Source: Maribacter sp. 1_MG-2023 (lineage in GTDB: Bacteria; Bacteroidota; Bacteroidia; Flavobacteriales; Flavobacteriaceae). Taken from it: a DNA stretch of 64,000 nucleotides. The stretch's first letter is position 1. Every line of letters begins with the position of its first letter. The DNA lies in NCBI RefSeq assembly GCF_030547005.1, contig NZ_JAUOPN010000010.1, positions 62,001-126,000 of the forward strand, written 5' to 3'. Below are positions 11,771 through 41,276 of the stretch, piece after piece. Made by a program: the position numbers and the translations under genes. The notes beneath the pieces were generated by a model, which saw only the letters and a list, made by a program, of their open reading frames with translations, was not told the origin of the DNA and did not search any database.

Positions 11771-11813
11771 TGACGAATATCATGTATCACTAATTCAATG
11801 ATTTATACTTTTA
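11771..11813 (+). promoter_or_regulatory. Crp/Fnr-type site and -7 box of the PNPOx-like gene
   Basis: The palindrome TGACGAATATCA (11771-11782) is followed by TACTTTTA (11806-11813). The box starts 29.5 bp from the palindrome centre, as at nine other promoters here. The centre lies 62 nt before the start codon. The same 12-mer occurs at 18051 and 21353. Confidence 0.78.
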
Positions 11814-11838
11814 TCGCATCAACAAACAACAATAGGTC

Positions 11839-12303
11839 ATGAGAAGAAATTTAAATCAACAGGAATGCAAAACATTATTGACACAGAACTACATTGGTAG
11901 ACTGGCTTATATTTCTGGCGGATCTCCACATATTGTACCCATTACCTATTTCTACGATCCTGAAACTAACACTATCACAAGCTATTCTTCTGAAGGTCAT
12001 AAAATTCAGGAAATGAGGAAAAATACGGCTGTATGTTTGTCGATAGATGAAATAACCTCCATTGCAGACTGGAAATCTGTTCTATTGCAAGGTACTTTTG
12101 AGGAACTTTCTCGTATAGATGCAAAACATATGCTACATGAATTTTCTGAGGGAGTTAAAAAAGTGATCGCAACTAATTACGGAGAACACCCAAAATGTAT
12201 AAGTGAATTCTCTGCGAAAATTGATACCGAAGATGCTCCTATCATTTTTAGGATCAACATCAACGAACTGAAGGGAAAACTAAGAGTAACCGATAAACAA
12301 TAG
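11839..12303 (+). CDS. Pyridoxamine 5'-phosphate oxidase-like flavoprotein
   Basis: A 154-residue protein matching the small PNPOx-like, split-barrel flavin-binding family (IGRLAYISGGSPHIVPITYFYDP near the N-terminus and ADWKSVLLQGTFEEL in the middle). Such proteins bind FMN or F420-like cofactors and are often annotated as nitroreductase or flavin-binding stress proteins; true PNP oxidase activity is unlikely at this length. It stands alone, preceded by a Crp/Fnr-type promoter and followed by a bidirectional terminator. The shared promoter type links it to the USP genes. Confidence 0.85.
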   Translation: MRRNLNQQECKTLLTQNYIGRLAYISGGSPHIVPITYFYDPETNTITSYSSEGHKIQEMRKNTAVCLSIDEITSIADWKSVLLQGTFEELSRIDAKHMLHEFSEGVKKVIATNYGEHPKCISEFSAKIDTEDAPIIFRININELKGKLRVTDKQ

Positions 12304-12370
12304 AGATTTAACTTTTTTAATTCAATGCCTAACTTGTTATTGTCCAGTGGTTATTATTATTTATAATGTA

Positions 12371-12404
12371 AAAAAAAAGCTCTCATTTAAATGAGAGCTT
12401 TTTT
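12371..12404. terminator. Bidirectional terminator between PNPOx and sigma-like genes
   Basis: A 10-bp perfect stem, AGCTCTCATT/AATGAGAGCT, is flanked by an A run on the left and a T run on the right, so it can terminate both converging genes. Confidence 0.9.
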
Positions 12405-12409
12405 CAATT

Positions 12410-13168
12410 CTAATTGCTATCTATAAGAAATCGTTTCTCAAAACTGTTCTTAAGTAGTTGCCTTGCCGAAGCCAACAACTCTTCAACCTGATCTAGTGTT
12501 GTTTTACGAATGTCTGCTATTTCTTCAGTAGTTAAACCTTCATTCGTAAAAAGTTCAAATACCGTTCTCATGGGTAAATTCATTTTATCTAACACCAGTT
12601 GCATATGGTTATAGATACGTTCTTTATCTAATGTAGCATCTAGCTTATCTGCCAATTTCTTTTCTTCCTCCGTTATAAAGACGTGGTTAAGAGAATAGTT
12701 GCTTTTATCTAAAGACTTATCATCCATCTCATCTAAAAGTAAAAAATCACCATCGGCGTCTTGTGTATAATTTTCTTCCATAGCATCCCATTCTGGCTTA
12801 GAATAGGTATCTATATTATCAAAAAAGACATGATCAAACTCCTCTTCTACTAAACTATCTTCTAATAACTCATCTACTTTTTTAAATAGAAAAACATGCA
12901 ATTCATTTTCACTTTTTATATCATCGATATTATCATATACCTCTATAAATAGTTGATCGGTAAAATCGCTCGGGTTAAACATACCTTTATTCAGCTTGCC
13001 GTTTGCCACGGCACTATTCAATCTTTTAGAAACGTATCGGTAAATTTGAGGGAGTACCTTTAATAGTTCTTTATTAAAAGATTCTCTATTCTCTTTACGC
13101 TTAAACGTAACCAGCTGAGAGTATGTTTCTTTCATTATTATTCTTATATCGTTCATGGCAGTTTCCAT
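12410..13168 (-). CDS. Divergent sigma-70 region 4-like protein
   Basis: A 252-residue acidic protein. The last ~60 residues resemble sigma-factor region 4 (LPMRTVFELFTNEGLTTEEI followed by a recognition-type helix, then LLASARQLLKNSF). The N-terminal half resembles a degenerate region 2 (QIYRYVSKRLN, LFIEVYDNIDD), separated by an unusually long Asp/Glu-rich linker. It could be an atypical ECF-type sigma or a sigma-like adaptor. Starts at 13168 (METAM) or 13156 are both possible. It is divergent from the P-type ATPase, sharing an intergenic region with a Crp/Fnr-type site that fits the ATPase direction better. Confidence 0.65.
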   Translation of the reverse strand: METAMNDIRIIMKETYSQLVTFKRKENRESFNKELLKVLPQIYRYVSKRLNSAVANGKLNKGMFNPSDFTDQLFIEVYDNIDDIKSENELHVFLFKKVDELLEDSLVEEEFDHVFFDNIDTYSKPEWDAMEENYTQDADGDFLLLDEMDDKSLDKSNYSLNHVFITEEEKKLADKLDATLDKERIYNHMQLVLDKMNLPMRTVFELFTNEGLTTEEIADIRKTTLDQVEELLASARQLLKNSFEKRFLIDSN

Positions 13169-13228
13169 AATAGTTTACTTTTAAGATTATTACACTATAA
13201 AATTGCAATCTTATAGGCGTAAATCATA

Positions 13229-13271
13229 TGATAAATGTCAGTGAGTTGCCTAAAGATTTCAGATAATTTAG
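13229..13271 (+). promoter_or_regulatory. Crp/Fnr-type site and -7 box of the P-type ATPase gene
   Basis: TGATAAATGTCA (13229-13240) is followed at the standard 29.5-bp spacing by TAATTTAG (13264-13271). The leader to the start at 13315 is about 20 nt longer than at the other sites. In the opposite direction the box would be CAATTTTA, a poorer match. Confidence 0.65.
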
Positions 13272-13314
13272 TACTTGATATGCCTTTTACAAATTAATAC
13301 CGAAAAACAATAGT

Positions 13315-15822
13315 ATGATCAATCCTACCGACTTTGGAATTACCGGACTCACAGACCAACAGGTTGATGCTTCTAAAAAGGAACATGGCTTAAATTCTTT
13401 TAATTATAAGAAAGAAAATAGCTTTTTAAATGCCTTAAAAAGTATTGCTAAAGAGCCCATGGTTATATTGTTACTCATAGCTTCATCTATATATTTTATA
13501 ACCGGTAATTATGGTGATGGCGTTTTTTTGGCTTCTGCCATTGTTCTTGTTGGCTCCATATCGCTATATCAAGATTCTAGAAGTAGAAAGGCTCTAGAAA
13601 ATCTCGAAAACCTTACCCACCCAAAAAGCAAGGTCATACGTAATGGTGCCGTTGTAGAAATTGATAGCCAAGATATTGTTGTTGGTGATTTTCTTATGGT
13701 TGAAGAAGGTACTACCATTTCTGCGGATGGCGTTATAGTTCACTCAAATGATTTTTCTGTAAATGAATCCATATTAACCGGCGAATCACTTTCTGTATAT
13801 AAGGACGCCACAAGTACAGATAATTTAATTTTTACAGGAAGTACCGTTGCTAGCGGATTGGCAATTGCCCAAATTACCGCAATTGGCAACTCAACCAAAC
13901 TGGGAAAAATAGGCAAAAGCCTTGAAGACATCACCGAAGAAAAAACACCTTTGGAACTGAAGATTTTCAACTTCGTAAAATTAATGTCCATCTGGGGCGG
14001 CGTTATATTTCTACTCGTTTGGGGAATAAATTACCTGCGTTCTGGTATTGTACTCGACAGTTTACTAAAGGCATTGACCTTAGCTATGAGTATTTTACCC
14101 GAAGAAATTCCTGTTGCATTTACCACTTTTATGGCGTTAGGTGCGTGGCGATTAATGAAAATGGGTATCGTCGTAAAACAGATGAAGACCGTTGAAACCT
14201 TAGGTAGTGCAACTGTTATTTGCACTGATAAAACCGGCACTATCACCCAAAACAAAATGGCTTTAGCCAAACTGTTCACATTAAAGACCGGTACCATAGT
14301 TAATACTAAAGATATATTAGGCGTCAATGAAAAAGAACTTATCACAACTTCTATGTGGGCAAGTGAACCAATACCATTTGACCCAATGGAAATTGCTATA
14401 CATAATGCATACGGTAGTTCAACAGATAACGATGAGCGCACCAATTATAAAATGGTTCATGAATACCCCTTAGGTGGTAAACCGCCAATGATGACCCATG
14501 TTTTTCAGAATAAAGAGGGCAACCAGATTATTGCCGCTAAAGGTGCGCCTGAAGCTATTATAGCAGTAGCTAATCTTACTACTTCTGAAATTGAAATTAT
14601 ACAAAGAACACTTACCGAATTAGGTAAAGATGGGTATAGAATGCTTGCCGTGGGTATGGCGATATTTGAAGGAGAAAATTACCCGAAAGAACAACAAGAT
14701 TTTAAATTTGATTTTAAGGGAATTATCGCTTTCTATGATCCACCAAAAGAAAACATCTCACAAGTACTGAAGGACTTTGATAGTGCGGGCATACAAGTGA
14801 AACTGGTTACAGGTGATAATGCGAATACCGCTATGGCAATCGCCAAACAAATCAATTTTAAAGGATATGAAAAATGTATTTCTGGCGATGAGTTAATGCA
14901 ACTAACAGATGCCGAATTACAAGAAAAAGTAAAGCACATCAACGTATTCTCTAGAATGTTCCCCGATGCGAAATTGAGAATTGTAAATGCATTAAAGAAA
15001 AACAATGAGGTGGTAGCAATGACTGGCGACGGTGTAAATGACGGTCCAGCTTTAAAGGCTTCACATATTGGTATTGCCATGGGTAAAAAAGGTACTGAAA
15101 TTGCCAAACAAGCAGCATCTCTTATATTGGTTGATGATGACCTATCTAGAATGGTTGATGCCGTTGCCATGGGTAGAAAAATATACACCAACTTGAAAAA
15201 GGCTATTCAGTATATCATTTCTATACACATACCAATCATCCTTACCGTATTTATACCCTTGGCGTTACGGTGGATCTATCCGAATATATTCTCACCATCT
15301 CATGTCATTATCTTAGAATTGATTATGGGACCAACCTGCTCTATAATTTTTGAAAACGAACCATTAGAGAAGAACCTCATGTTTAAAAAACCGAGACCTT
15401 TTTCAACTACTTTTTTTAACTATAAAGAACTATTTACAAGTGTTTTACAGGGCTTAGCTATAACTATAGGTGCATTAGTTATTTATCAATATACCGTAGT
15501 TGTTGGGTTCTCTGAGAATACTACTAGAACCATGGTATTTATGGTCTTGATCGTAGCTAATATCTTTTTGACTTTGGTGAACCGATCTTTTTATTATTCC
15601 ATATTCACGACCTTGAAATACAAGAATAATTTGGTTCCGCTAATTATAGGTCTTACCATCATACTTACACTAGCTATGTTATATGTACCTGCATTGACCC
15701 GCTTTTTTGAATTTGAAAAATTATCTATGTCTCAACTAGGCACAACAATAATTGTAGGTGCTGTTTCTGTACTTTGGTTCGAACTTGTAAAATGGATAAA
15801 ACGCGCTAAGAAAAATGTATAA
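13315..15822 (+). CDS. P-type cation-transporting ATPase (P2-like, probably Ca2+)
   Basis: An 835-residue membrane pump with all P-type ATPase landmarks: TGES actuator loop (155-158), PEEIP in helix M4 (262-266), phosphorylation motif DKTGT (D305) and hinge TGDGVND. Helices lie near residues 47-62, 69-85, 222-240 and 250-275, plus a C-terminal bundle. The M4 motif and lack of N-terminal metal-binding domains favour the Ca2+/Mn2+ (P2A-like) group over heavy-metal pumps; the ion is not certain. It converges with upp, its stop directly abutting that gene's end. The Crp/Fnr-type promoter parallels the DosR-controlled P-type ATPase CtpF of Mycobacterium. Confidence 0.9.
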   Translation: MINPTDFGITGLTDQQVDASKKEHGLNSFNYKKENSFLNALKSIAKEPMVILLLIASSIYFITGNYGDGVFLASAIVLVGSISLYQDSRSRKALENLENLTHPKSKVIRNGAVVEIDSQDIVVGDFLMVEEGTTISADGVIVHSNDFSVNESILTGESLSVYKDATSTDNLIFTGSTVASGLAIAQITAIGNSTKLGKIGKSLEDITEEKTPLELKIFNFVKLMSIWGGVIFLLVWGINYLRSGIVLDSLLKALTLAMSILPEEIPVAFTTFMALGAWRLMKMGIVVKQMKTVETLGSATVICTDKTGTITQNKMALAKLFTLKTGTIVNTKDILGVNEKELITTSMWASEPIPFDPMEIAIHNAYGSSTDNDERTNYKMVHEYPLGGKPPMMTHVFQNKEGNQIIAAKGAPEAIIAVANLTTSEIEIIQRTLTELGKDGYRMLAVGMAIFEGENYPKEQQDFKFDFKGIIAFYDPPKENISQVLKDFDSAGIQVKLVTGDNANTAMAIAKQINFKGYEKCISGDELMQLTDAELQEKVKHINVFSRMFPDAKLRIVNALKKNNEVVAMTGDGVNDGPALKASHIGIAMGKKGTEIAKQAASLILVDDDLSRMVDAVAMGRKIYTNLKKAIQYIISIHIPIILTVFIPLALRWIYPNIFSPSHVIILELIMGPTCSIIFENEPLEKNLMFKKPRPFSTTFFNYKELFTSVLQGLAITIGALVIYQYTVVVGFSENTTRTMVFMVLIVANIFLTLVNRSFYYSIFTTLKYKNNLVPLIIGLTIILTLAMLYVPALTRFFEFEKLSMSQLGTTIIVGAVSVLWFELVKWIKRAKKNV

Positions 15823-16476: not shown

Positions 16477-16510
16477 GAATGCTATATTTTAATTGTAAGG
16501 TACTGTTTTA

Positions 16511-16558
16511 AAATAAAAAACTTGAATATATCAATGTTACCATTTATATATTCAAGTT
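16511..16558 (-). terminator. Terminator after the WG-SDR operon
   Basis: On the minus strand, a long stem AACTTGAATATA pairing with its complement (arms near 16519-16530 and 16547-16558) is followed by a T-rich tail. Confidence 0.85.
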
Positions 16559-16588
16559 TCACTATTTTCAATTTCATTCTATTAGTGC

Positions 16589-17350: not shown

Positions 17351-17355
17351 CGTAC

Positions 17356-17994
17356 TTATTTTTTAGTTTCTAGATTTTCAATAGTCCAACCTTGTCCTGC
17401 TTTATGTGTAGCTACTAAATTTTTATGTATAATCTTAGCACCTATCTCTGGCATTTGATAGCGTTTAACGGTCATTTGAACATGATCTCTTTTTTCGAAA
17501 TAATCTGTAATTTCACCAGTTGAACTAACGCGTACATCAAAAAACTTATACTCGAAAATCTTTAATTTAAATTCATTTTCACCTTTGAAGCTCTTATCAA
17601 ATAAAACAGCTGTCGTAAAGCCGTCTTTAAAGGGAAACACATTTAAAAACTGTGGTTCAATGACAATCTTACCTGAGGTATCCATAAATCCGAATACAGG
17701 CACCCCATCTTCTACTGTACTTTTTATAATGCATAAACCTTCGCTGAATATGGGGTATTTAACTCCTGAAACATCTGTTTTGGTTTCATCAACTTTTGCG
17801 CTCGCAAATATGTCATCTCTATATTCAATAACCATTTTTCCCTCTTCATTGATAAACCCCCATTGCTTGCCTTTACGCACTGCCGCCAAGCCCTCGCTAA
17901 AAGGAGCTATTTCATCAATATTATTTAAAACTTGTGCTGAAGCGGGTATCGTTACCATCAGTGCTAATACCCATAAGATTAGTGTTTTTTTCAT
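17356..17994 (-). CDS. Secreted WG-repeat protein
   Basis: A 212-residue protein with a signal peptide (LILWVLALMVTIPASAQV). It contains WG-type repeats: IAPFSEGLAAVRKGKQWGFI with NEEGKMVIEY, then FSEGLCIIKS and a variant GFMDTSGKIVIEPQF. The C-terminal ~70 residues are unlike the repeats. WG proteins are common in Bacteroidota and their function is mostly unknown. It is the first gene of a two-gene operon with the SDR, preceded by a Crp/Fnr-type palindrome read on the minus strand. Confidence 0.82.
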   Translation of the reverse strand: MKKTLILWVLALMVTIPASAQVLNNIDEIAPFSEGLAAVRKGKQWGFINEEGKMVIEYRDDIFASAKVDETKTDVSGVKYPIFSEGLCIIKSTVEDGVPVFGFMDTSGKIVIEPQFLNVFPFKDGFTTAVLFDKSFKGENEFKLKIFEYKFFDVRVSSTGEITDYFEKRDHVQMTVKRYQMPEIGAKIIHKNLVATHKAGQGWTIENLETKK

Positions 17995-18019
17995 AATTTC
18001 TAAATTTTAGAATGTTCTA

Positions 18020-18062
18020 CTAATGTATTTAGTTGAACACTAAATTACTATGACGAATATCA
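18020..18062 (-). promoter_or_regulatory. Crp/Fnr-type site and -7-like box of the WG-SDR operon
   Basis: On the minus strand TGATATTCGTCA (18062-18051) is followed by TACATTAG (18027-18020) at the standard 29.5-bp spacing; the centre is 62 nt before the start at 17994. In the plus direction the box position reads TACATGCA, which does not fit. Confidence 0.65.
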
Positions 18063-18238
18063 GGCTTCTTAAATCTTAACTTATTTACATGCAAACCGCA
18101 TTATTCAATCTTTCGAAATTTCTTCATCTCATTTTAAAATACTCCTTTCAATAACTAAATAGCTACTAGATTTTTAATGGACAAATCTTTCTTGCCGGTA
18201 TCTAAATAGAAATTTTCGGGTTGACTATTTACCCGTCA

Positions 18239-18281
18239 TGATATTTATCATAGGTTTTTTTCGCCCCCTCCAATACTTTTA
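18239..18281 (+). promoter_or_regulatory. Crp/Fnr-type site and -7 box of the first USP operon
   Basis: A perfect FNR-like core TGATATTTATCA (18239-18250) is followed by TACTTTTA (18274-18281) at 29.5 bp; the centre is 58 nt before the start codon. The same 12-mer recurs at 23102. The box lies in a small palindrome, TACTTTTAAAGTA, also found at 21388. Confidence 0.82.
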
Positions 18282-18302
18282 AAGTATCAATAAACGAAAG
18301 CC

Positions 18303-19148
18303 ATGAAAAATATTCTCATTCCTACAGATTTCTCGAGCAATGCAGATCACGCAATTACATATGCCCTTAATGTTTTTAAGTGTGAGCGTACCAATTTTTA
18401 CTTTATACATGCATATGCAGATGAAGTATATGGACCATATCATAATGTCGACAAGGATACATTCGACAAACAAAAAAATAGTATTGCCGATGAATCTGAG
18501 AATAAATTACAAAAGCTTGTTGCCAATACGCAAACAAAAACGCACAACCCGCTTCATAAATACGAAGCAATTTCTTCTTTCGAATCTATGGTTGATGCTA
18601 TTAATGATTTTGCCGACTCAAAAAATATAGACTTAATAATAATGGGTACCAAAGGTAAAACCGCCAGTTCTAAAATCACCTTTGGCAGTAATACCGTGCA
18701 AGTATTTAAGTATGTGAAATGTCCGGTTTTGGCTGTACCTAATCAATATAGTTATAACCAACCTAAGAAAATACTATTTCCAAGTAACTACATGCTTCCC
18801 TATAAACGTCGAGAATTGAAACTGTTAGATATTATGGCAGGAGAATTCAAAGCAGAAGTTCTTAGTTTATACATCTCAGATTTTGAAGATTTAAGCCTTA
18901 GACAACTAGATAACAAAAAATTCTTAGAAGAATCTTTACCAAATGCTAGATTATCATTTGTAAGAACTGGTGTTCATAATAGGGCAAATGCGATTACTGA
19001 ATATATCAAAGAGAATGATATCGATTTACTAGTGATGGTAAACTCAAGACATTCGTTTTTAGAAGACTTGTTGTACCAATCTACTATTGATGAAATTGGT
19101 CTTTCACCTACTATTCCGTTTTTAGTATTGCAAAATCTACCCCGCTAA
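18303..19148 (+). CDS. Tandem universal stress protein (USP) 1
   Basis: A 281-residue double-UspA protein. The N-terminal domain has the start ILIPTDFSSNA and the ATP-binding motif G-2x-G-9x-G-S (MGTKGKTASSKITFGSN). The C-terminal domain (from about residue 150) keeps the fold pattern but lacks that motif. First gene of an operon with USP 2 (16-bp gap) and USP 3. UspA proteins are induced under growth arrest, hypoxia or energy stress; biochemical roles are mostly unknown. The start at 18303 follows the Crp/Fnr-type promoter directly. Confidence 0.92.
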   Translation: MKNILIPTDFSSNADHAITYALNVFKCERTNFYFIHAYADEVYGPYHNVDKDTFDKQKNSIADESENKLQKLVANTQTKTHNPLHKYEAISSFESMVDAINDFADSKNIDLIIMGTKGKTASSKITFGSNTVQVFKYVKCPVLAVPNQYSYNQPKKILFPSNYMLPYKRRELKLLDIMAGEFKAEVLSLYISDFEDLSLRQLDNKKFLEESLPNARLSFVRTGVHNRANAITEYIKENDIDLLVMVNSRHSFLEDLLYQSTIDEIGLSPTIPFLVLQNLPR

Positions 19149-21352: not shown

Positions 21353-21395
21353 TGACGAATATCATACTAATTGTAATCTTCTCTGATTACTTTTA
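21353..21395 (+). promoter_or_regulatory. Crp/Fnr-type site and -7 box of the second USP operon
   Basis: TGACGAATATCA (21353-21364) is followed by TACTTTTA (21388-21395) at 29.5 bp; the centre is 58 nt before the start at 21417, the same geometry as at 18239. Confidence 0.82.
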
Positions 21396-21416: not shown

Positions 21417-22250
21417 ATGACACGTATTTTATTACCCACAGATTTCTCTAAAAATTCTCTAACGGCAATACATTATGCGCTGAAATTGTATAAAGATTTA
21501 AAATGTACTTTTTATCTTTTAAACAGTTACATGCCGCCTGTATACCATACTGAATATTTAATGGGGAGCCCGGCACAAATAGGTCTGGGAGATATCGTTC
21601 AACAGAATTCTCAAGATAACCTTGAAAACCTTAAGGTAAAATTGCAAAAAGAGTTTGATAATCCTTTACATATTTTCATTACACATTCTGCGCTAAACGT
21701 GCTTTCTAGTGAAGTTACTAGAACGGTGGAAGCCGAAGGTATAGATACTGTTGTGATGGGAACACAGGGTGCTACAGGTGCCAAAGAAATATTGTTAGGT
21801 ACCAATACGGTGCACGTTATCAAAAATTCTAAATGCCCTGTTTTGGTCTTACCATCTGGTTTTGAATTTGAAGCACCAGAGCAGATTCTTTTTCCTAATG
21901 ATTTTGAAGTATCACTAGATAAAAAAAGCTTGGCTCAATTGTTAAAGATTACCAATTCTCATGTATCTCAGGTAAACGTCATGCATGTATATACTGGTGA
22001 CGACCTTACTCCTGTTCAAGAAAAAAATAAAAAACAACTAGCTAAGGTATTATCTGAAAGCGGATTTTTTCATGAAGTAAGTAGTAATGAGATTATAACG
22101 GCAATAAATGAATTTCAAATTAAGCAAAAAATAAACTTATTAGTCATGGTACAAAACAAGCATACCTTTTTAGAACGCTTGTTTATTGAACCGGTAATTA
22201 AGAAAATCGGCTTTCATGTAACACTACCATTTTTAGTAATTCCTCAATAA
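21417..22250 (+). CDS. Tandem universal stress protein 4
   Basis: A 277-residue double-UspA protein starting ILLPTDFSKNSLTAI, with ATP-binding motif MGTQGATGAKEILLGTN in domain 1. Domain 2 begins near EQILFPNDFEVS and lacks the glycine motif. First gene of a two-gene operon with USP 5 (5-bp gap), driven by a Crp/Fnr-type promoter. Confidence 0.92.
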   Translation: MTRILLPTDFSKNSLTAIHYALKLYKDLKCTFYLLNSYMPPVYHTEYLMGSPAQIGLGDIVQQNSQDNLENLKVKLQKEFDNPLHIFITHSALNVLSSEVTRTVEAEGIDTVVMGTQGATGAKEILLGTNTVHVIKNSKCPVLVLPSGFEFEAPEQILFPNDFEVSLDKKSLAQLLKITNSHVSQVNVMHVYTGDDLTPVQEKNKKQLAKVLSESGFFHEVSSNEIITAINEFQIKQKINLLVMVQNKHTFLERLFIEPVIKKIGFHVTLPFLVIPQ

Positions 22251-22255: not shown

Positions 22256-23104
22256 ATGAACATTAAAAACATACTTGTAGCAACAGATTTTTCTAATGAA
22301 GCCTATAACGCGCTTTTTTATGCAACCAAAATTTTTGCATCAACAGCATGTACTTTTCATATAGTTCATGCCTATGACGATATTGTATTGAGTGCGAAAA
22401 ATGCGCTATTTACAGGACAGAAAGAGATGGAACATTTACAGAATCTGTCTCAAGAAAACTTAACAAAAACAGCGCATAAAATTGTGCTTGATACTGGTAA
22501 TGAAATACACAAATTCAATACTATTTCTAGTAAAGGCAGCCTTGCTAGTGTAATTAACAAAACTATAGATACCCATAATATCGATTTGGTAGTAATGGGC
22601 AACAAAGGTAAAACGGGCGCCAAAGAATTATTTATGGGCAGTAATACCATACAAATTGCAAATACTATTACAACATGCCCTATTTTGGCCATACCAAGAG
22701 AAATCGCCTTTAAACCTATTGAAGAAATCGCTTTTGTTACCGACTATAAAAAGGGTTGTACTAAAAGCTCTACTTCTACGCTATTAGATATCGCATCAAT
22801 TTCAGATGCATCTGTTGCTGTTCTGCATATTAATGAAGGAGAAGTAATGACTTCTAAACAGTTATCTAACCAAAAACTATTAGATACCTGCTTTCAAGAA
22901 ACACCGCATAGCTTTGATGAGATTTGGAACTATGCTGATAAGGCAAATGTTATTCAAGATTTTATAGCTGAAAGAGAGATTAGCATGTTGGCAATGGCGT
23001 ATCATAGAAGAAAATTCTTTGAACGTTTTTTACATGAACCCGTAATTATGGATTTAAGTATTTATGCCACTATTCCGTTTTTAATTCTACCGGTACAAGA
23101 CTGA
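22256..23104 (+). CDS. Tandem universal stress protein 5
   Basis: A 282-residue double-UspA protein: ILVATDFSNEAYNAL at the start, ATP-binding motif MGNKGKTGAKELFMGSN in domain 1, and a degenerate second domain from about IEEIAFVTDYKK. It is co-transcribed with USP 4. Its TGA stop (23102-23104) is the first three bases of the next gene's Crp/Fnr-type palindrome, an economical overlap. Confidence 0.92.
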   Translation: MNIKNILVATDFSNEAYNALFYATKIFASTACTFHIVHAYDDIVLSAKNALFTGQKEMEHLQNLSQENLTKTAHKIVLDTGNEIHKFNTISSKGSLASVINKTIDTHNIDLVVMGNKGKTGAKELFMGSNTIQIANTITTCPILAIPREIAFKPIEEIAFVTDYKKGCTKSSTSTLLDIASISDASVAVLHINEGEVMTSKQLSNQKLLDTCFQETPHSFDEIWNYADKANVIQDFIAEREISMLAMAYHRRKFFERFLHEPVIMDLSIYATIPFLILPVQD

Positions 23105-23144
23105 TATTTATCATAGTAAATTAATAGCCTAGATTATATATTTA
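23102..23144 (+). promoter_or_regulatory. Crp/Fnr-type site and -7 box of USP 6, overlapping a stop codon
   Basis: TGATATTTATCA (23102-23113), identical to the site at 18239, is followed by TATATTTA (23137-23144) at 29.5 bp. The palindrome begins with the stop codon of USP 5; its centre is 61 nt before the USP 6 start. Confidence 0.8.
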
Positions 23145-23168: not shown

Positions 23169-24008
23169 ATGAATAAGCGTATTCTAATACCTACAGATTT
23201 CTCTAAAAATGCATTGAACGCGATTAGATATACTATTGATTTATATGCAAAATTAAACTGTGATTTCTATTTTCTGAGCGTATTCAGTTTTGATAAATAC
23301 ACAACTAATAGTTTAAGTATACCCGAAGAAGGTAGCGCTGCATTTGAACAGGCTAAAGAAGATTGTGAAAAGAATTTTGTAAAGCTTCTAGATACCTTAG
23401 CATTGCACCCAGACAACCTGAAGCATAATTATTACACTGAATCATCTTATAGTTTTCTTTCTGAAGCTATACAGAAAATCATTACTGAAAAAGATATTGA
23501 TTTGGTGGCTATGGGTACTAAGGGCGCTACAGGAGCTAAAGGTGTTCTATTTGGTAGTAATACTGTAATGGCAATGGAAAAAATAAGGGAATGTCCTGTA
23601 TTGGCTATACCTGAGCATGTTTCTTTCATGTCACCTAAAGAAATTGTTTTTCCGACAGATTTTAAAGATGTTTATAAACGATCGGAGTTTAGATACCTTA
23701 TAGAGTTGGCTAAAATGCACAATGCTGAAATAGCCATATTACATCTAGAAAAAAATAAAGAACTTTCTAAAATTCAATTGAGCAATAAGCAATTATTATC
23801 ATCTATTTTAAGTGAGACTGCGCATCAATTTCATACACTTACAGAAAAGAATTTGGGCAAAGGTATTCAGAGCTTTGTTGAAAGTAGAGAAAGCGATATG
23901 GTGTCTTTCATTAACCGTAAACATTTCTTTTTTGGTAATGTTTTCTCTAGACCTTTAATCAAGGAAATTGGTTATGACAGTGATGTACCTATTCTAGCTT
24001 TGCATTAA
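23169..24008 (+). CDS. Tandem universal stress protein 6
   Basis: A 279-residue double-UspA protein: ILIPTDFSKNALNAI, ATP-binding motif MGTKGATGAKGVLFGSN in domain 1, and domain 2 from about KEIVFPTDFKDVY without the motif. It has its own Crp/Fnr-type promoter although it follows USP 5 closely, and a terminator about 90 bp downstream. Confidence 0.92.
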   Translation: MNKRILIPTDFSKNALNAIRYTIDLYAKLNCDFYFLSVFSFDKYTTNSLSIPEEGSAAFEQAKEDCEKNFVKLLDTLALHPDNLKHNYYTESSYSFLSEAIQKIITEKDIDLVAMGTKGATGAKGVLFGSNTVMAMEKIRECPVLAIPEHVSFMSPKEIVFPTDFKDVYKRSEFRYLIELAKMHNAEIAILHLEKNKELSKIQLSNKQLLSSILSETAHQFHTLTEKNLGKGIQSFVESRESDMVSFINRKHFFFGNVFSRPLIKEIGYDSDVPILALH

Positions 24009-25464: not shown

Positions 25465-25468
25465 TAGT

Positions 25469-26875: not shown

Positions 26876-26918
26876 TGACAATGGTCATATCTCTAACTTT
26901 TTCTAAATAGTATCTTCG
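26876..26918 (+). promoter_or_regulatory. Crp/Fnr-type site and -7-like box of the lipoprotein gene
   Basis: TGACAATGGTCA (26876-26887) is followed by TATCTTCG (26911-26918) at the standard 29.5-bp spacing. The box differs from TAnnTTTG at one position. The centre is 68 nt before the start at 26950. Confidence 0.68.
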
Positions 26919-32138: not shown

Positions 32139-32181
32139 CAAAATAACAGGAAATCTTTGTGGTATTATATGAGTAAAATCA
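32139..32181 (-). promoter_or_regulatory. Crp/Fnr-type site and -7 box of the exporter operon
   Basis: On the minus strand TGATTTTACTCA (32181-32170, one base off the core) is followed by TTATTTTG (32146-32139) at 29.5 bp. The centre is 58 nt before the start at 32117. The weakest palindrome of the set, but the geometry is exact. Confidence 0.58.
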
Positions 32182-34397: not shown

Positions 34398-34423
34398 TTA
34401 TAATATTCCGCTTAATTTAATTA

Positions 34424-37400
34424 TTATTTTGCCTTATCAAATTGACGCATTCTAAAGTAAGCTAAAGCAGAAGTAATTACAACAATTGCAATGAGCACAT
34501 AAATAAATTTAGGTACCGGTAATGGATCGCCAGCAGCATAACTATGCAACCCAGATAAATAATAATTAACTCCAAATGAAGTCATTATTATAGACCCAAA
34601 AGCAAAAACACTAGCAGCATTCAAAACATATTTACTTTTTAGTGCCGGTACAAACCGTAAGTGCAATACAATTGCATATATGATTATGGAAATCAAAGCC
34701 CAAGTTTCTTTTGGGTCCCAAGCCCAATAACGACCCCATGATTCATTTGCCCAAATACCACCCAAAAATGTACCTACAGATAATACGAATACACCTATGG
34801 TCATAGAAATTTCATTGATATAGGTCAACTCCTTTATTCTGATATTGATGGCTTCACTAGATTTTTTAGTTTTCATTATCATTAGTAGCAATACCATAAA
34901 ACCTAATATAAACGATAAGGCCAATGGCGCATAACTACTTACAATAGTAGCAACGTGTACTTTAAGCCAAAATGACTTTAATACCGGCATTAAGTTGGTA
35001 ATTTCAGGACTTAACCAATCTAGGTAACTAACAAATAGTAGCGAACCTGTAAATAGTGTTGCCAAAGGCAAAGAGAAATCAGATTTTCTAAAGGTCATTA
35101 AGCCACAAAGCATCAATACCCACGCAACAAAAATTAACATTTCATAACCATTGCTCCAAGGTGCATGTTGAGCTACATACCATCTTAAAATAATATTACC
35201 TGTAAATACCAAAAAGCTTATAAGGGAGAGTATTACCAAAATATTCCATAGTACATCAATATACCGTTTTTGCATAAATATTCTAGCCAAAGCTAAAGCC
35301 AACAATATAAAACCAAGTGTAAAAAACACCTGAAACAGCCAAAAATAAAGGTTCATTTCATTATACCATAATTCTGCTTCTACCCTTTGGTCATTGGGTA
35401 TAATTTCTACTCCTAAGGTACTTTGATAGGTGTCAATATAAGATAGTTTTTCATTAGCTTCTGCCCACTTCTTATCTGCAATATCATTAAAATAAGCCGG
35501 CGTTATCGACTGAACAAAACGCCCATCTTCTGGCGGAAAATCTTTAAAGTGATGGGTATAACTAAACCATGTATCATTTTCATCTAAACTATTGGGAAAA
35601 ATCTTTAAATAGTTTCCTGAAAATATATTGAACAAGATATTGAAACGCTCGTCAACTTTTAAAACTTCTTTATCAAATTCATTATGTTCTGCAGGTTTTT
35701 TTGCATTTGCTTCTTCAGCTACTTTGGTAAGTACATAATCTCCGCTTGGGTTTATTAAATCATCAAATGAGATCAGACCTTCTTCGGTAATTTTAAGGGC
35801 ATCAAAAAAAGTACCCCCTTTTTCTGCATCTATTTTAATGATAGGAATTTGTTGCCAAGCTCCTGGCGCAACATGCATTGCCAAAAATACTTGGTTAGCG
35901 TCTAAACGAATTTCTTTTCCGTTGACATTATATGTAAAATAAGGTTTACGAGATACTTTACGCAAAAATTCAGATGCCAGGGTGTTTATAGGTTTTACAC
36001 GGCCATCAAGATCTTGTACCATTAACCTACCGAAAAGATCTGAATGCTGTATATCTATATTTTGATGGGCAACCAAATCTGGAATGGAAATAGAATCATT
36101 AGATTGTTGCGCCTCTAGCCCTGTTGCTATTAAACCAAATAAAAACATAGCGATTACTTTGTTTTTACTTTTTAGCTTTTTCAACTTTTTATTGATAATT
36201 GTAAAATGTGAACTTTTCCCAAATAAGGTAAAAAACATCCCTATCATCATAAGAAAATAGCCCAAATAGGTAACGTTGGTTCCTAATACATCATGGTTTA
36301 CAGATAGAACGGTCCCCTTTTCATCTGTATCATAACTTGCTTGATAAAAACGATAACCCCCATAATCCAACACATTATTCATAAAAATTCTAAAGGGCAT
36401 TTTTGTATTCGTATCTAAAACCATTACCTCACTTGCATATGCAGACGGACTTTCAGATCCTGGATATCTATCTAACTGAAAATCATTCAACTGTATTTTA
36501 AACGGAGTTTCAATTGGCATAGCACCATAGGAAAATTGAAGATTAACACCTCCTAGATTTATCTCATGATGCGTAGGTAAAAAACCATCTCTATACAGCA
36601 ATGTTATTTCTTCTGTTTTATCTTCTACATGTACATTTAATACTAGAGCATCATCCTTTACCTTATCATTATCCTTTGGTTTTTCAGATGTACTAACCAA
36701 TTCAATACTACCAGAGTCATGAAAAGACAAAGGAACAAACGAAAGATCTCCAGAACGGTAAAGGGTTCTTAAATTCATGGGTTGTAACGTATCTCCCTTT
36801 ATAAGTCCGGCAGTTTGATCTGCCATAATAAAGAAGTCTAACTGATGAGGTGAAAATATCTTGAATTTGCCATCTTTTTCAATGAGATTGATAACATCTT
36901 CACCCGCAGCCTCAAAACCAATTTTATGTTTATGACTACCTATTTCTTCTATCTCACCCTTTTCAAGAAAAACGGTTTCACGTCCATTACCAGATGTTAC
37001 CACCATTTGTAATAATGGAACACCCGCTTCTTGATCATCTACAATTTCGGGCGTTGCGTCTGCTACAAATTGATTATGTGTTATCTTGATAGGTATATTC
37101 TCAAAATCTGTAGAGACGGTAAAATCATTATCGCTTAATGGCGAAAAATACAGTTCTTCTTGAAGATGTTTTGTTTTTTCCCCCTTAGCGATGTGTACCT
37201 GTAAATAATTTTTATCTGAAATTATGGTGCTTGATGTTTTACCCTCACGTATACGCATTACACCACCATAAGAATAATATCTAGTAATTCCGGCGCCTAT
37301 TATAATGACAATAAATGCAATATGAAACATTAAAATAGCCCATTTTTCTTTGCGCCAAAGTCTATACTTAAAAATATTAGCAGCAAAGCAAAGGCTTAAG

Positions 37401-37567
37401 CCTATCATGACCAACTCGAACCAAGTAGCATCATACACTTTGATCCAAGCAGTGGCAGTACCAAAATCGTTCTCAATAAATGTGGCTGCACCCATGGCAA
37501 TGGCAAAGACCAATAATAAGACCAACGCCAAGGTTGGAGAAGAAAAAATACGGTAAATTTTTTTCAT
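34424..37567 (-). CDS. Fused cytochrome c maturation protein CcsBA (ResB-CcsA)
   Basis: A 1047-residue fusion. The N-terminal ~450 residues are ResB/CcsB-like, with three early helices and a large periplasmic domain. The C-terminal ~300 residues are CcsA, with multiple helices and the haem-handling WWD-type motif ESWGRYWAWDPKETWAL. System II cytochrome c biogenesis proteins carry haem across the membrane and attach it to CxxCH motifs. The last gene of nrfH-nrfA-ccsBA (51-bp gap), it is presumably needed for the nine haems of NrfHA, including the unusual CxxCK site. Fused CcsBA is known in Bacteroidota and Epsilonproteobacteria. Confidence 0.93.
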   Translation of the reverse strand: MKKIYRIFSSPTLALVLLLVFAIAMGAATFIENDFGTATAWIKVYDATWFELVMIGLSLCFAANIFKYRLWRKEKWAILMFHIAFIVIIIGAGITRYYSYGGVMRIREGKTSSTIISDKNYLQVHIAKGEKTKHLQEELYFSPLSDNDFTVSTDFENIPIKITHNQFVADATPEIVDDQEAGVPLLQMVVTSGNGRETVFLEKGEIEEIGSHKHKIGFEAAGEDVINLIEKDGKFKIFSPHQLDFFIMADQTAGLIKGDTLQPMNLRTLYRSGDLSFVPLSFHDSGSIELVSTSEKPKDNDKVKDDALVLNVHVEDKTEEITLLYRDGFLPTHHEINLGGVNLQFSYGAMPIETPFKIQLNDFQLDRYPGSESPSAYASEVMVLDTNTKMPFRIFMNNVLDYGGYRFYQASYDTDEKGTVLSVNHDVLGTNVTYLGYFLMMIGMFFTLFGKSSHFTIINKKLKKLKSKNKVIAMFLFGLIATGLEAQQSNDSISIPDLVAHQNIDIQHSDLFGRLMVQDLDGRVKPINTLASEFLRKVSRKPYFTYNVNGKEIRLDANQVFLAMHVAPGAWQQIPIIKIDAEKGGTFFDALKITEEGLISFDDLINPSGDYVLTKVAEEANAKKPAEHNEFDKEVLKVDERFNILFNIFSGNYLKIFPNSLDENDTWFSYTHHFKDFPPEDGRFVQSITPAYFNDIADKKWAEANEKLSYIDTYQSTLGVEIIPNDQRVEAELWYNEMNLYFWLFQVFFTLGFILLALALARIFMQKRYIDVLWNILVILSLISFLVFTGNIILRWYVAQHAPWSNGYEMLIFVAWVLMLCGLMTFRKSDFSLPLATLFTGSLLFVSYLDWLSPEITNLMPVLKSFWLKVHVATIVSSYAPLALSFILGFMVLLLMIMKTKKSSEAINIRIKELTYINEISMTIGVFVLSVGTFLGGIWANESWGRYWAWDPKETWALISIIIYAIVLHLRFVPALKSKYVLNAASVFAFGSIIMTSFGVNYYLSGLHSYAAGDPLPVPKFIYVLIAIVVITSALAYFRMRQFDKAK

Positions 37568-37618
37568 GAAAAGTGTACGGCGATAAAAGCCATTAGAAAT
37601 AGATTATTTTTTAAAAGC

Positions 37619-39115
37619 CTATTTGTTTATACTTACAGCATTGGCATCCATTTTATCTTCACGTGCTTTTGCTTCTTCTAACCATTTTGGCAATAAATTC
37701 GTTTTAAACTCCTCTTTTTCTTTGATTAGTTTTTCCATATCCAAACCTATGAAAGCTTGTGCTTTTTCTTTAGAGGTAATATCTGGCATTGGTACTTCTT
37801 GGTTAAAGCCTAAAGTAGCCAATAATCTAGCTAATTTCACTCTAGCCTCTTGGGCAACATTGAGTCCGCCTCCTAAAACCCGTGCGGTCTCTACAGGAGA
37901 GTGAAATGATGCTCCATGAGACGCAGCAGCATAATCCCAACGCCATTGGGCATGACGAATATCTGTAAGTATTGATTCCATTTGTTCTTCTGTAGCGCCT
38001 AATTCCCAAGCCTTACCTGCTTCTATATGAGATTTTACTAAAAGGTCTTCAAGCTTTAATCTATTTTCTGTCGCTTTTCTTTGACGCTCATAAACATTCT
38101 CTCGTAGTTTATCCGCCTCTTGTCTGTGACATACTTGACAAGAATTGGCTACATTGTTTAAAGGAGATTGTAAATGGTGGTCGGTAAATTTTTGCCCACC
38201 TTCACTTTTATAAGGCATGTGGCAATCAGCACATGAGACACCACGATCGGCGTGAACACCGGTTAAATAAGTTTCGTATCCAGGATGCTGAGCCTTCAAC
38301 ATTGGTGTTTTACTTATTTTGTGCGTCCAGTCTGCAAATTCCATTTCATCATAATACTCCTCCATTGCTTCTACTGTCATACCATTTTTCCAAGGGAAAG
38401 TCAAATATGGCGTTCCTTCTGCACCAGGTTTTTTCTTATCAAAATAATACTCTACATGGCATTGTGCACAAACTAAAGAACGCATTTCTTGGTGGGTAGC
38501 TTTATTAATGTCCTTGCCCATAGCATCAAAAGCTTCTACTAGAGCAGGTCTAGTAATACGTAGTTTCATATTACCTGGATCATGACAATCTGCACAACCA
38601 ATTGGATTTACGATTTCAGCACCTTTATCTGCCCATTTACCATCGTAGAATTCTGCAACACCTATTTCATTCATTAAACGTGGAACATCTGGACTCTTAC
38701 AGGTCCAACAAGTAGCGGGCATTGGTCCGTCCCCGTCTCCTTTTGGTCCGCCTGTTCTTAATGTATTTCTAATATCATCAATGGCATAATAATGACCACG
38801 CCCTTGGTTATAGTCTTTAGAAAAACCATAACCAGCGAATAATACGACCAATCGTGGATCTTCTTCAAGCACATCTCTCATGGCAGAACCTCCTTGAAAT
38901 GAAGCAAAAGAAGTTTCTGAAGTTTGCAACCAAGATTGATACTCTCTAGGATAATTTTTACCCCACTCCTCATTTCTAGGTTCATTCTCACCTATATCTA
39001 CTTGAGGTACATACTGGTATTTGGCTTCACTTTTTCTATTAATAATACTAGAAGCAAGCAGCCCTAATAAGAAGACTACTATAATGGTTACAACAAATAG
39101 AATTTTATTTTTCAT
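37619..39115 (-). CDS. nrfA: Cytochrome c nitrite reductase, catalytic subunit
   Basis: A 498-residue periplasmic pentahaem enzyme reducing nitrite to ammonium with six electrons. A signal anchor (residues about 4-25) precedes the catalytic CWTCK haem site (136-140, Lys as proximal ligand). Four CxxCH sites follow: CADCH 174-178, CAQCH 216-220, CADCH 295-299 and CQVCH 326-330. The CAQCHVEYYF segment is typical of the Ca2+-associated region. It lies 10 bp after nrfH. Confidence 0.97.
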   Translation of the reverse strand: MKNKILFVVTIIVVFLLGLLASSIINRKSEAKYQYVPQVDIGENEPRNEEWGKNYPREYQSWLQTSETSFASFQGGSAMRDVLEEDPRLVVLFAGYGFSKDYNQGRGHYYAIDDIRNTLRTGGPKGDGDGPMPATCWTCKSPDVPRLMNEIGVAEFYDGKWADKGAEIVNPIGCADCHDPGNMKLRITRPALVEAFDAMGKDINKATHQEMRSLVCAQCHVEYYFDKKKPGAEGTPYLTFPWKNGMTVEAMEEYYDEMEFADWTHKISKTPMLKAQHPGYETYLTGVHADRGVSCADCHMPYKSEGGQKFTDHHLQSPLNNVANSCQVCHRQEADKLRENVYERQRKATENRLKLEDLLVKSHIEAGKAWELGATEEQMESILTDIRHAQWRWDYAAASHGASFHSPVETARVLGGGLNVAQEARVKLARLLATLGFNQEVPMPDITSKEKAQAFIGLDMEKLIKEKEEFKTNLLPKWLEEAKAREDKMDANAVSINK

Positions 39116-39125
39116 AATGTGGTGG

Positions 39126-39725
39126 TTATTTAGTTGCCATTTCTTTTTCTAACCAAGCGGGAATTACTGTTTCTTCTTGATCGGTTGGTAAAGGGGCTAT
39201 ATTATATTTAACGGTAGACATACCATGAATACGTCCGTGAGGTACTTCTTTATGACAGCTCCAACATTGACGCTCAGTTCTATTTTCTTTATGACCTTCT
39301 ATAAAACCATCGTATTTAGTTTGGGTAACTTGTTGCACATGACATCTAATACAGTTGTTTTGAACTACTTCTTGAGAGCCTTCTCGCATAAAGATAACCT
39401 CTGGTTCTGCCCTGGCCGTAAATATTGATGCGTGATAAAGCCCGTCCATAGCCTTAAAATAATAAGCATTGACAACATTATTTTGTGGAACATGACAACC
39501 GTTACACGATACCCATTCTCGATGAGAACTATGCATCCAACTATTGTAAACAGGGGTCATTACATGACAATTGACACATGCCTGCGGATTATCTGACATA
39601 TAGGAAAGCACTTCACCTTCTTTCATTAAAAAAAAGCCAATACCAATGATTGCCGCTAAAGAAAAAACAGCAAAAGAACGTAAAGACGAGCCTTTTTTAG
39701 GTAGTATTTTTGACTTAAACCTCAA
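39126..39725 (-). CDS. nrfH: Cytochrome c nitrite reductase, membrane quinol-oxidising subunit
   Basis: A 199-residue NapC/NirT-family protein with one N-terminal membrane anchor (SFAVFSLAAIIGIGFFLM) and four CxxCH haem sites (CVNCH, CNGCH, CIRCH, CWSCH). It passes electrons from menaquinol to NrfA. First gene of the nrfHA-ccsBA operon. I looked for a Crp/Fnr-type site with the -7 spacing used elsewhere here and found none in 39726-39886, so its control may differ. Confidence 0.95.
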   Translation of the reverse strand: MRFKSKILPKKGSSLRSFAVFSLAAIIGIGFFLMKEGEVLSYMSDNPQACVNCHVMTPVYNSWMHSSHREWVSCNGCHVPQNNVVNAYYFKAMDGLYHASIFTARAEPEVIFMREGSQEVVQNNCIRCHVQQVTQTKYDGFIEGHKENRTERQCWSCHKEVPHGRIHGMSTVKYNIAPLPTDQEETVIPAWLEKEMATK

Positions 39726-39886
39726 ATCTTAATGTTTACAAAATGATGTGTATTAGTATTTCAATAACAATTTAAGGAATTATTCTATGCAAACACCATT
39801 CTAGAAAAAACATTACATTTTAATGACCTATAAGGAAAAATTACCCTTCTTATTTGTATTTAAATTACCTCTATTGCTGATGTATG

Positions 39887-40180
39887 TTATAAATGCAATA
39901 AAAAGTCTGGACACAATAATGGAAGAAAAACAAATACGAACAAGAAAAATAGTACAGCCCAAAGTACGCCCATAAGCAATGGGTATATAATAATATCTCC
40001 TTTAACCTTTGGTTTTAATGAATGGGCTAGCAGACTGTGAACACCCATGCTAAACAAAGTGAAAATGATTGCTAAAATTGTAATTAAGTATGCTTTTGAA
40101 TGTGTGTCTCTAATGGTGAACAAATAAAAACCCAATCCTAATGCAATTGCTATTATAATACTATAAACTCTTCTAGCCAT
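39887..40180 (-). CDS. Small three-helix membrane protein
   Basis: A 97-residue protein with three hydrophobic helices (IIIAIALGLGFYLF, ITILAIIFTLFSMGVHSLLA, LWAVLFFLFVFVFLP). I recognise no family. It starts 11 bp after the USP gene on the same strand and is probably co-transcribed from the Crp/Fnr-type promoter at 41094-41136. A frameshifted copy lies at 32925-33221. Confidence 0.7.
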   Translation of the reverse strand: MARRVYSIIIAIALGLGFYLFTIRDTHSKAYLITILAIIFTLFSMGVHSLLAHSLKPKVKGDIIIYPLLMGVLWAVLFFLFVFVFLPLLCPDFLLHL

Positions 40181-40191
40181 GACTAACTGTT

Positions 40192-41067
40192 TTAAAGTGC
40201 CTGTTTGAAATAAAATAATTGATGATTTGATCCTCTAAAACTTAAGAGCGGTACTCTGCCGTAAGATTCCATTTTCTTTACTAAATCTCTATGAAATACA
40301 TTTTTTAGAATTCCCTTATGTTCTCTTTCTAAAATAACCACTAAATCTGCATTTGTATCACCTAGGTAAATTCTAAGCGTTTCAAAAACATCTTCTGTAA
40401 ACAATAATTCAAAATCAATTTGATCATAGTTTACTTTTTCGTGGAGCATCTCCTTAAACCACTCTAGCTGCATTCCTCCTTTGTATTCATCTTTAGTAGA
40501 AATATGAACCACTTTTATAGCTGCTTTTAACTGTTGGGCCATTTCTACCAACTTACGAATGGCATATATATCTTCTTCTTCAAAATCAGTTGCATATACT
40601 ATATTCTTAATAAGCATATAAGAAGCATCTGACGGTATACTCAATACCGGACAAGGAGATTTTTCTAATAAGTTTCTAGTAGTACTACCCATTATCACTT
40701 CTCTAATGGTACTGCCCCCTTTAATGCCAAGAATAATTAGGTAAGCATGCCATTCTACTGCAACTGAAATTAAACCTTGTACAACCGATTTATCTTCATA
40801 AGCTTCTAATACTACATTGGGATCTTGCCAAGAACTCCCCAAATGCTCATCGCAGAATTCTTCAAGTTTAAATCTGTGTGATTTATGTGCAGTTTTGTCT
40901 AGATGTGGAAAAGGTTCGTCGAGATTATCTGTACCCAATATGGTAGGGTAATCAAATACATGACTAATGACCAAACGGGTTTCCATTTGCTTAGCCATAT
41001 GGTACGCATATTTTAATGCTGCTATAGAATTTTCAGAATAATCGGTACAATATAGTATGGTCTTCAC
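40192..41067 (-). CDS. Tandem universal stress protein 7
   Basis: A 291-residue double-UspA protein of a different branch from USPs 1-6: it starts TILYCTDYSENSIAALKYAY, and the first domain has the ATP-binding motif GIKGGSTIREVIMGS. Domain 2 (from IKNIVYATDFEEED) lacks it. First gene of a two-gene unit with the small membrane protein, with its own Crp/Fnr-type promoter on the minus strand. A truncated copy of its second domain lies at 33233-33691. Confidence 0.92.
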   Translation of the reverse strand: MKTILYCTDYSENSIAALKYAYHMAKQMETRLVISHVFDYPTILGTDNLDEPFPHLDKTAHKSHRFKLEEFCDEHLGSSWQDPNVVLEAYEDKSVVQGLISVAVEWHAYLIILGIKGGSTIREVIMGSTTRNLLEKSPCPVLSIPSDASYMLIKNIVYATDFEEEDIYAIRKLVEMAQQLKAAIKVVHISTKDEYKGGMQLEWFKEMLHEKVNYDQIDFELLFTEDVFETLRIYLGDTNADLVVILEREHKGILKNVFHRDLVKKMESYGRVPLLSFRGSNHQLFYFKQAL

Positions 41068-41093
41068 GAGATTATTATTTTAAATATTTTTAC

Positions 41094-41136
41094 CTAAAGT
41101 ATTGACTATCAAAATAAAAGACCATGACCAGCATCA
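41094..41136 (-). promoter_or_regulatory. Crp/Fnr-type site and -7 box of USP 7
   Basis: On the minus strand TGATGCTGGTCA (41136-41125) is followed by TACTTTAG (41101-41094) at 29.5 bp; the centre is 63 nt before the start at 41067. It is one of two back-to-back sites in this divergent region. Confidence 0.75.
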
Positions 41137-41233
41137 TGTCTACTAAATTTTATAAATTATTAAGGTAACAATCTTAAATAGGAATGATTTATCTTAAAAT
41201 ACTCACGACTGGTGGTTAACTTTATAATAATCA

Positions 41234-41276
41234 TGATTTTGGTCATAAATTTTCAACCCTTGGGGTAATAACTTTA
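41234..41276 (+). promoter_or_regulatory. Crp/Fnr-type site and -7 box of the 41300 operon
   Basis: TGATTTTGGTCA (41234-41245) is followed by TAACTTTA (41269-41276) at 29.5 bp; the centre is 60 nt before the start at 41300. Confidence 0.78.

Follow-up and report, generated by a model that had tools for sequence, protein, structure and literature searches.

A Crp/Fnr-type promoter element with a fixed spacing in Maribacter and its family, and two candidate proteins that may read it

The stretch of DNA described here, "the window", comprises bases 62001-126000 of contig 2 (C2) in the 4.27-Mb genome of Maribacter sp. 1_MG-2023 (G000), and is 64,000 nucleotides long. Between positions 11771 and 41276 it carries ten promoter elements, each consisting of a palindrome, TGAY-N4-RTCA, a 23-base spacer and a TANNTTT box, in a layout of about 43 bp. 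The original prediction, made from the sequence of the window, described these elements as the sites of a Crp/Fnr-type regulon, and all ten palindromes are present where it placed them. The palindrome TGAYNNNNRTCA is matched exactly by nine sites, and the one at 32170 carries a single mismatch. At every one of the ten sites the box starts 23 bases past the palindrome, or 29.5 bp from the palindrome centre, provided that one box mismatch is allowed (five boxes are exact and five have one mismatch).

The first element (11771..11812, plus strand, box TACTTTT) has its centre 62.5 nt ahead of an open reading frame (ORF) of the PNPOx family (11839-12303, PF12900). The second (13229..13270, plus strand, TAATTTA) is situated 80.5 nt ahead of a P-type ATPase gene (13315-15822), and the other side of its palindrome, with the box CAATTTT on the minus strand, lies 66.5 nt ahead of ORF 12410-13168. 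Three elements face a universal stress protein (USP) gene on the plus strand: 18239..18280 (TACTTTT, 58.5 nt ahead of ORF 18303-19148), 21353..21394 (TACTTTT, 58.5 nt ahead of ORF 21417-22250) and 23102..23143 (TATATTT, 61.5 nt ahead of ORF 23169-24008). The remaining two plus-strand elements precede ORFs without a Pfam match, one of 212 amino acids (aa) (element 26876..26917, TATCTTC, 68.5 nt ahead of 26950-27588) and one of 152 aa (element 41234..41275, TAACTTT, 60.5 nt ahead of 41300-41758). Three of the ten elements face the minus strand. The element at 18021..18062 (palindrome 18051-18062, TACATTA) lies 62.5 nt ahead of a WG-repeat ORF (17356-17994, starting at 17994) that is followed by an SDR ORF; 32140..32181 (palindrome 32170-32181, TTATTTT) lies 58.5 nt ahead of HlyD, MacB-FtsX and ABC ORFs (32117-29076, starting at 32117); and 41095..41136 (palindrome 41125-41136, TACTTTA) lies 63.5 nt ahead of a USP ORF with a GTG start (40192-41067, starting at 41067). 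The distance of 58-68 nt between centre and start codon, predicted as the usual one, describes nine sites (58.5-68.5 nt), the P-type ATPase being the exception. The predicted gene list was right in outline, including the USPs, as PF00582 is matched by eight ORFs of the window; it left out nrfH, nrfA and a cytochrome c assembly gene, which are described below. An Rfam scan of the window found one tRNA and nothing else.

There are 12 exact palindromes in the window, where 4.55 would be expected, and none of 100 shuffled sequences reached 12. An exact palindrome and a box with at most one mismatch are found at spacer 23 in 11 orientations, a count that includes the minus sides of 13229 and 21353 (the latter with one box mismatch) and excludes 32170. 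In 300 first-order Markov sequences the mean was 0.38 and the maximum 3. The other spacers between 15 and 33 hold zero to three orientations each. Three of the 12 exact palindromes (34816, 35424 and 56037) are inside long ORFs and have no box, and the original prediction did not include them.

The whole genome holds 25 exact elements, 14 of them on contig 2, which makes up less than 4% of the genome. When the spacer was allowed to vary from 8 to 38 bases, 88 matches were found; 25 of these are at spacer 23 and the 30 other spacers share 63, with zero to six each. The sites might be no more than AT-rich promoter sequence with chance palindromes and no common activator, and when spacing is ignored the reversed pattern, which served as the control for element counts, does equal the real one (85 against 88 matches, with no overall excess). 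However, the excess is confined to spacer 23, lies for the most part in intergenic positions and is seen again in other genomes, and chance is scarcely credible as an explanation.

Nor is the element as frequent inside genes as outside them. Of the 25 exact elements of this genome, 23 are clear of any ORF of at least 100 aa. In 18 of the 25 an ORF starts 41-76 nt from the centre, at 54-76 nt in 17 of those. Among 30 of the 88 free-spacer matches that were examined, an open stretch of at least 330 nt covers none of 15 at spacer 23 and 10 of 15 at other spacers. A weight matrix was trained on 29 sites, namely 24 of the 25 exact elements (the site on contig C5 being left out) and five near matches from the window; the training sites score 14.8-28.9 bits in a leave-one-out procedure. 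In bases 1-160000 of contig 2 it gives 29 matches of at least 12 bits, of which 19 are training sites and three are inside ORFs, and five random sequences give zero to six.

Thirty sites, the 25 exact and five near ones, were aligned. The core and box bases of the exact sites were set by the search pattern, so that their invariance is by choice and the flanks are informative. Directly after the palindrome, 24 of the 30 sites have a T, which makes A the outer base of the proximal side in those 24 when it is read towards the core. On the promoter-distal flank the base before the palindrome is T in only three sites (A in 12, C in 12 and G in 3); the sites of E. coli FNR are given as TTGATNNNNATCAA (PMC4601167), and the outer T of the FNR box is therefore not kept. 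The FNR-box core, TGAY-N4-RTCA, is present, having been the search pattern. There is no TTG consensus at the would-be -33 position of the 30 aligned sites; in other genomes of the family, TTG occurs within the first six spacer bases in 7 of 38 sites of G062 and in 3 of 43 sites of G007 and G027 together. The single spacing peak agrees with the fixed site-to-box distance of a class II Crp/Fnr-activated promoter. Assuming the usual distance from the -7 box to the transcription start in Bacteroidota, the palindrome centre would fall near -41.5.

The targets, among them an fnr-like gene, cco genes, hemN, napDA, USPs and a MacB-like exporter, are of the kind found in an FNR/Anr-type regulon. Outside the window, the element lies before or at ccoS-ccoNO, 55.5 nt upstream of hemN and 100.5 nt from napD in napD-napA. 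The gene of an FNR-like protein has its own element 59.5 nt upstream, and ccoI is preceded by an element in the opposite direction, with a CACCTTT box. Further elements are found before or at a USP-like gene adjoining fnr, a USP gene behind the gene of a receiver-CRP fusion, cbpA-like and ferredoxin-reductase-like genes, and a YtxH-like gene behind ackA. CcoS, CcoNO, CcoG, HemN, NapA, NrfA and NrfH each exceed the cut-off of one or more NCBIfam models, and the names cbpA, napD, ackA, YtxH, ferredoxin reductase and the USP beside fnr were assigned by eye from the start of the protein. The palindrome at C42:8863 has a box at spacer 23 on the nap side and one at spacer 24 on the other side, which faces a MoeA-like ORF (by eye). 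One palindrome in another locus (L091:2841) likewise has boxes at spacers 23 and 24 on its two sides, with an ORF of 393-394 aa on the spacer-24 side, as at C42:8863. Three metallo-beta-lactamase/rhodanese-like genes (C2:23764-26712 and 38441-39781, Pfam being run on the first) lie near element-bearing promoters, and perhaps handle sulphide or persulphide.

Within the window, the minus-strand region 34424-39725 contains an ammonia-forming nitrite reductase set, nrfH (39126-39725, TIGR03153 over cut-off) and nrfA (37619-39115, NF008339 over cut-off), and then a ResB/CcsA-type cytochrome c assembly gene. The nrfH gene is downstream of the USP ORF 40192-41067 on the same strand. No element directly precedes nrfH in the window, the nearest being that at 41125 before the USP gene, and it is possible that the promoter at 41095-41136 serves nrfH and nrfA as members of the regulon. 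The window NrfA was compared with its 80 best matches, giving 80 nrfA-centred loci of GTDB genomes, among which records named Maribacter or Allomuricauda are 82-95% identical to it. These loci hold 32 sites at spacer 23, 10 at spacer 24 and zero to six at each other spacing from 10 to 39. Two of the 32 sites at spacer 23 are inside ORFs, as against 18 of 67 at other spacings. Since most matches at other spacings are likewise clear of ORFs, position outside genes discriminates less in this set than in the Maribacter genome. An ORF of 199 aa, the size of nrfH, directly precedes nrfA in three Gelidibacter loci and has the element 56.5-57.5 nt upstream.

No regulator was found inside the window: Pfam identified no Crp/Fnr protein among 30 window ORFs, and the 13 cyclic nucleotide monophosphate (cNMP)-binding loci of the genome all lie elsewhere. 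Two proteins encoded elsewhere, which have almost identical recognition helices, are candidate readers of the element.

The first candidate is the FNR-like protein, 229 aa long and encoded at C2:8913-9602, 52 kb before the window and beside the cco genes. It scores over the cut-offs of PF00027 and PF13545, and its best match in the PDB is an FNR-type regulator. Cysteines C5, C8, C54 and C107 are invariant in all 30 FNR-like proteins compared (this one and 29 at 57-79% identity; matches at 43-58% were left out). When the protein is aligned with A. fischeri FNR, C5, C8 and C107 each pair with a cysteine, N14 takes the place of the third N-terminal cysteine and C54 stands opposite an alanine. The ligand cysteines of E. 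coli FNR are residues 20, 23, 29 and 122 (PMC4601167); three of the four are kept here as C5, C8 and C107, and the third in order is replaced by N14. The sequence suggests that the protein probably senses oxygen via an iron-sulphur cluster held by C5, C8 and C107, with C54 possibly as the fourth ligand. The recognition helix reads ATES-x-IR in 26 of the 30 proteins, ATELLIR in one and AKEACIR in three.

The second candidate (C42:32403-33455, 350 aa) is a fusion of a receiver (PF00072), a CRP body (PF00027) and a helix-turn-helix domain (PF13545), encoded behind a PAS histidine kinase. It has the make-up of a response regulator with CRP output, with the receiver aspartate D52 in place and a kinase-like ORF in the locus. 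Such an ORF is present in all 30 fusion loci fetched; D52 and K104 of the fusion and H288 of the kinase are each conserved in at least 29 of 30. The kinase adjoining the fusion has two PAS stretches, the first of which matches FixL, and the position aligned by eye with the haem histidine of FixL is histidine in most, not all, kinases. The helix of the fusion reads ATE(S/T)LIR in 24 of 30 proteins, and all 30 have E--IR. At the position of the FNR helix serine (S212), a determinant of the outer T, both the fusion and the FNR-like protein have isoleucine.

A third Crp/Fnr protein might instead be the true activator, since there are 13 cNMP-binding loci to choose from. The small protein encoded at C2:22179-22811 follows an element-bearing gene, and a second FNR-like protein (L043, C41:177533-178291) has, besides an E--IR helix, three cysteines close to the N-terminus and another further on. 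The helix of the former differs (RVVISRLL), however, and no exact element lies beside the latter, which was set aside as the main reader. Element counts across genomes track the FNR-like and fusion genes (those two proteins were not counted separately across genomes), and a third activator, whether one of these or another, appears most improbable. By eye, C41:177533-178291 lies between transport genes and siroheme or nitrate-assimilation genes. In eight of the 80 nrfA-centred loci there are FNR-like proteins 30-34% identical to the C2 protein, 15-18 kb into the locus; no FNR-like match in this set is closer than that.

Exact elements were counted in 100 genomes of the family, and number 1482, as against 118 for the reversed pattern. 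The FNR-like gene was called present at E <=1e-30 and at least 43% identity (57 genomes), matches at 30-35% being excluded as the other paralogue, and the fusion was called present at E <=1e-60 (42 genomes); two genomes with partial FNR-like matches (2 and 3 elements) were set apart from the four resulting groups. The mean number of elements per genome is 27.0 with both regulators (n=22), 13.6 with the FNR-like gene only (n=35), 16.7 with the fusion only (n=20) and 3.4 with neither (n=21, median 2). Each of the first three groups differs from the last (p <1e-6, Mann-Whitney, ignoring kinship and genome size), showing that the element is statistically associated with each regulator gene.

The spacing is retained in single genomes of either kind. 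In the FNR-only genome G062, 38 of 81 free-spacer matches are at spacer 23 (the fixed-spacer search gives 39), and in the fusion-only genome G007 there are 27 among 69 matches listed, of 71. In the regions read of G007 and of a second fusion-only genome, G027, elements precede USP genes, hemN (with the element overlapping the start chosen for hemN in G007) and either ccoNO itself or a short ORF upstream of it. The HlyD-FtsX-ABC genes of G007 and the P-type ATPase gene of G027 carry the element too. In the FNR-only genome G059 it is found before hemN, before a USP gene and 254.5 nt ahead of ccoNO. Other elements in the regions of these three genomes face ORFs that have no labelled counterpart or no start at the usual distance. 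In the window, ATP-cone/Mrr-like and beta-CASP nuclease-like genes adjoin the USP array (24622-26839), and in G027 similar genes are beside a USP array and the receiver-CRP gene.

These genomes bear on the earlier proposal that one activator drives all of the promoters. It is now doubtful, as there are two candidates with nearly identical helices and the element occurs in genomes having a single regulator of either kind; a single activator lost ground once element-rich genomes without the FNR-like gene were found. One version of the proposal would have the FNR-like protein activate the whole regulon alone, and the fusion would have separate targets with a merely similar motif. The FNR-like gene does bear the element and adjoin the cco genes, and the mean of 27 in genomes with both regulators is close to the sum of 13.6 and 16.7, as if there were two separate sets. 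On the other hand, several of the shared genes bear the element in fusion-only genomes, and the one such genome examined peaks at the same spacing. The sites of one FNR-only genome do not differ clearly from those of two fusion-only genomes beyond base composition (no statistical test was made), and in the Maribacter genome elements at C42:30858 and C42:33469 flank the kinase-fusion pair. A lone FNR-like activator is thus unlikely. When six fusion-only genomes were searched with the FNR-like protein, all nine (A/S)(T/S)E-type IR helices among 19 matches belonged to frames about as long as the fusion (350-385 aa).

The element thins out beyond the family. In a survey of 118 genomes of the phylum, ten other family members have a mean of 17.4 elements (control 2.0), two genomes of the order have 13 and 12, 16 of the class have a mean of 5.5 (control 0.6) and 89 of other classes a mean of 1.2 (control 0.3).

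The ten window sites are probably part of a regulon that extends over the genome, takes in at least 25 activator-dependent promoters (about 30 when near matches are counted) and has two probable readers. The spacing, the position before genes, the conservation and the target genes all support the Crp/Fnr-type regulon and the class-II-like geometry put forward earlier. A Crp/Fnr-type dimer would bind TGAY-N4-RTCA with its centre 29.5 bp before the Bacteroidota -7 box (TAnnTTT) and near -41.5, where it would take the place of the missing -33 element and touch RNA polymerase as a class II activator. One reader would be the FNR-like protein, which has the element on its own gene and would sense oxygen by an iron-sulphur cluster; the other would be the receiver-CRP fusion, switched through phosphorylation by the adjoining PAS histidine kinase. 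The regulon would ready the cell for low oxygen, by way of cbb3 oxidase, HemN, nitrate and nitrite reduction, USPs, an exporter and a cation ATPase.

Several observations weigh against this two-reader regulon, besides the equal yield of the reversed pattern when spacing is ignored. Two of the 25 exact elements fall within ORFs of at least 100 aa, and one of the other 23 overlaps the opening codons of ccoS, an ORF of 83 aa; for seven of the 25, no ORF begins 41-76 nt from the centre. The FNR-like protein scores 104.7 bits against the NCBI Fnr model, whose cut-off is 228. In G059 no exact element precedes the FNR-like gene, so that autoregulation of fnr is not general. The family counts ignore kinship and genome size, and many of the genomes with neither regulator are small, yet eight of at least 2.6 Mb hold zero to seven elements. 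One genome without either gene, G048, holds 31 elements and is 82% complete. Further readers are possible, as the paralogue at C41:177533, with more N-terminal cysteines, is present in the Maribacter genome and three of the six fusion-only genomes encode a small CRP-type protein whose helix, VETVIR, is similar in part.

The distribution can be taken further, with about even chances of being right, to a picture in which Flavobacteriaceae have one 43-bp low-oxygen promoter code and two interchangeable activators with unrelated inputs. One would be an FNR variant whose fourth cluster ligand is C54, in the body of the protein, instead of a residue of the N-terminal loop; the other would be a phosphorylation-gated fusion that condenses a FixJ-FixK-like cascade into a single protein. 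Lineages would keep the promoters and targets and lose either reader, and species having both, this Maribacter among them, would integrate two signals at the same sites. If this is true, it supplies a ready list of promoters, names two candidate regulators and offers a natural experiment, with the cis-elements constant and the sensor variable.

In the sea, flavobacteria are major polysaccharide degraders, and to our knowledge no low-oxygen regulon has been mapped in them. No description of this regulon was found in a small number of searches of the open-licence literature. A map of transcription starts in F. psychrophilum reports induction of cbb3 under oxygen limitation, and the portion of its text available contains no mention of Fnr, Crp or TGA (PMC9723704). 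A study of one Flavobacteriales genome, as far as the accessible part of the article goes, places the Crp/Fnr homologue of that genome close to MalR and predicts that carbon is sensed (PMC8510549); that claim is not the one made here, and it concerns another set of proteins.

Among known systems, the regulon is closest to the FNR and Anr regulons of proteobacteria (E. coli FNR, Pseudomonas Anr). They share target classes (cbb3 genes, hemN, nap and USPs), the TGAT-N4-ATCA core, a class-II-like distance, a CxxC start and a cysteine at the fourth-ligand position in the regulator, and an fnr-like gene that carries the element beside cco genes. Unlike these systems, the sites described here have a Bacteroidota TAnnTTT box without TTG at -33, only 3 of 30 carry the outer T of TTGAT, and a second, kinase-driven reader is likely. 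The FNR-like protein itself differs from FNR in having isoleucine at the helix serine, asparagine for the third ligand cysteine and the additional invariant C54. The regulon resembles a class II FNR regulon and its first candidate regulator is a relative of FNR, yet the ligand set departs from that of FNR, the NCBIfam cut-off is not reached and the site lacks the outer T. The DosR regulon of mycobacteria has USPs and low-oxygen survival genes in common with it, and differs in regulator family and motif. In the FixL-FixJ-FixK cascade of rhizobia a sensor kinase acts on cbb3 genes via a Crp-type protein. The sensor kinase described here resembles that system in its first PAS domain, which matches FixL, although its haem binding is only putative; the receiver and Crp output are in one polypeptide, which would skip the FixJ-to-FixK step. 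Such a fusion, as the likely second reader of the same sites, is the least expected part of the regulon.

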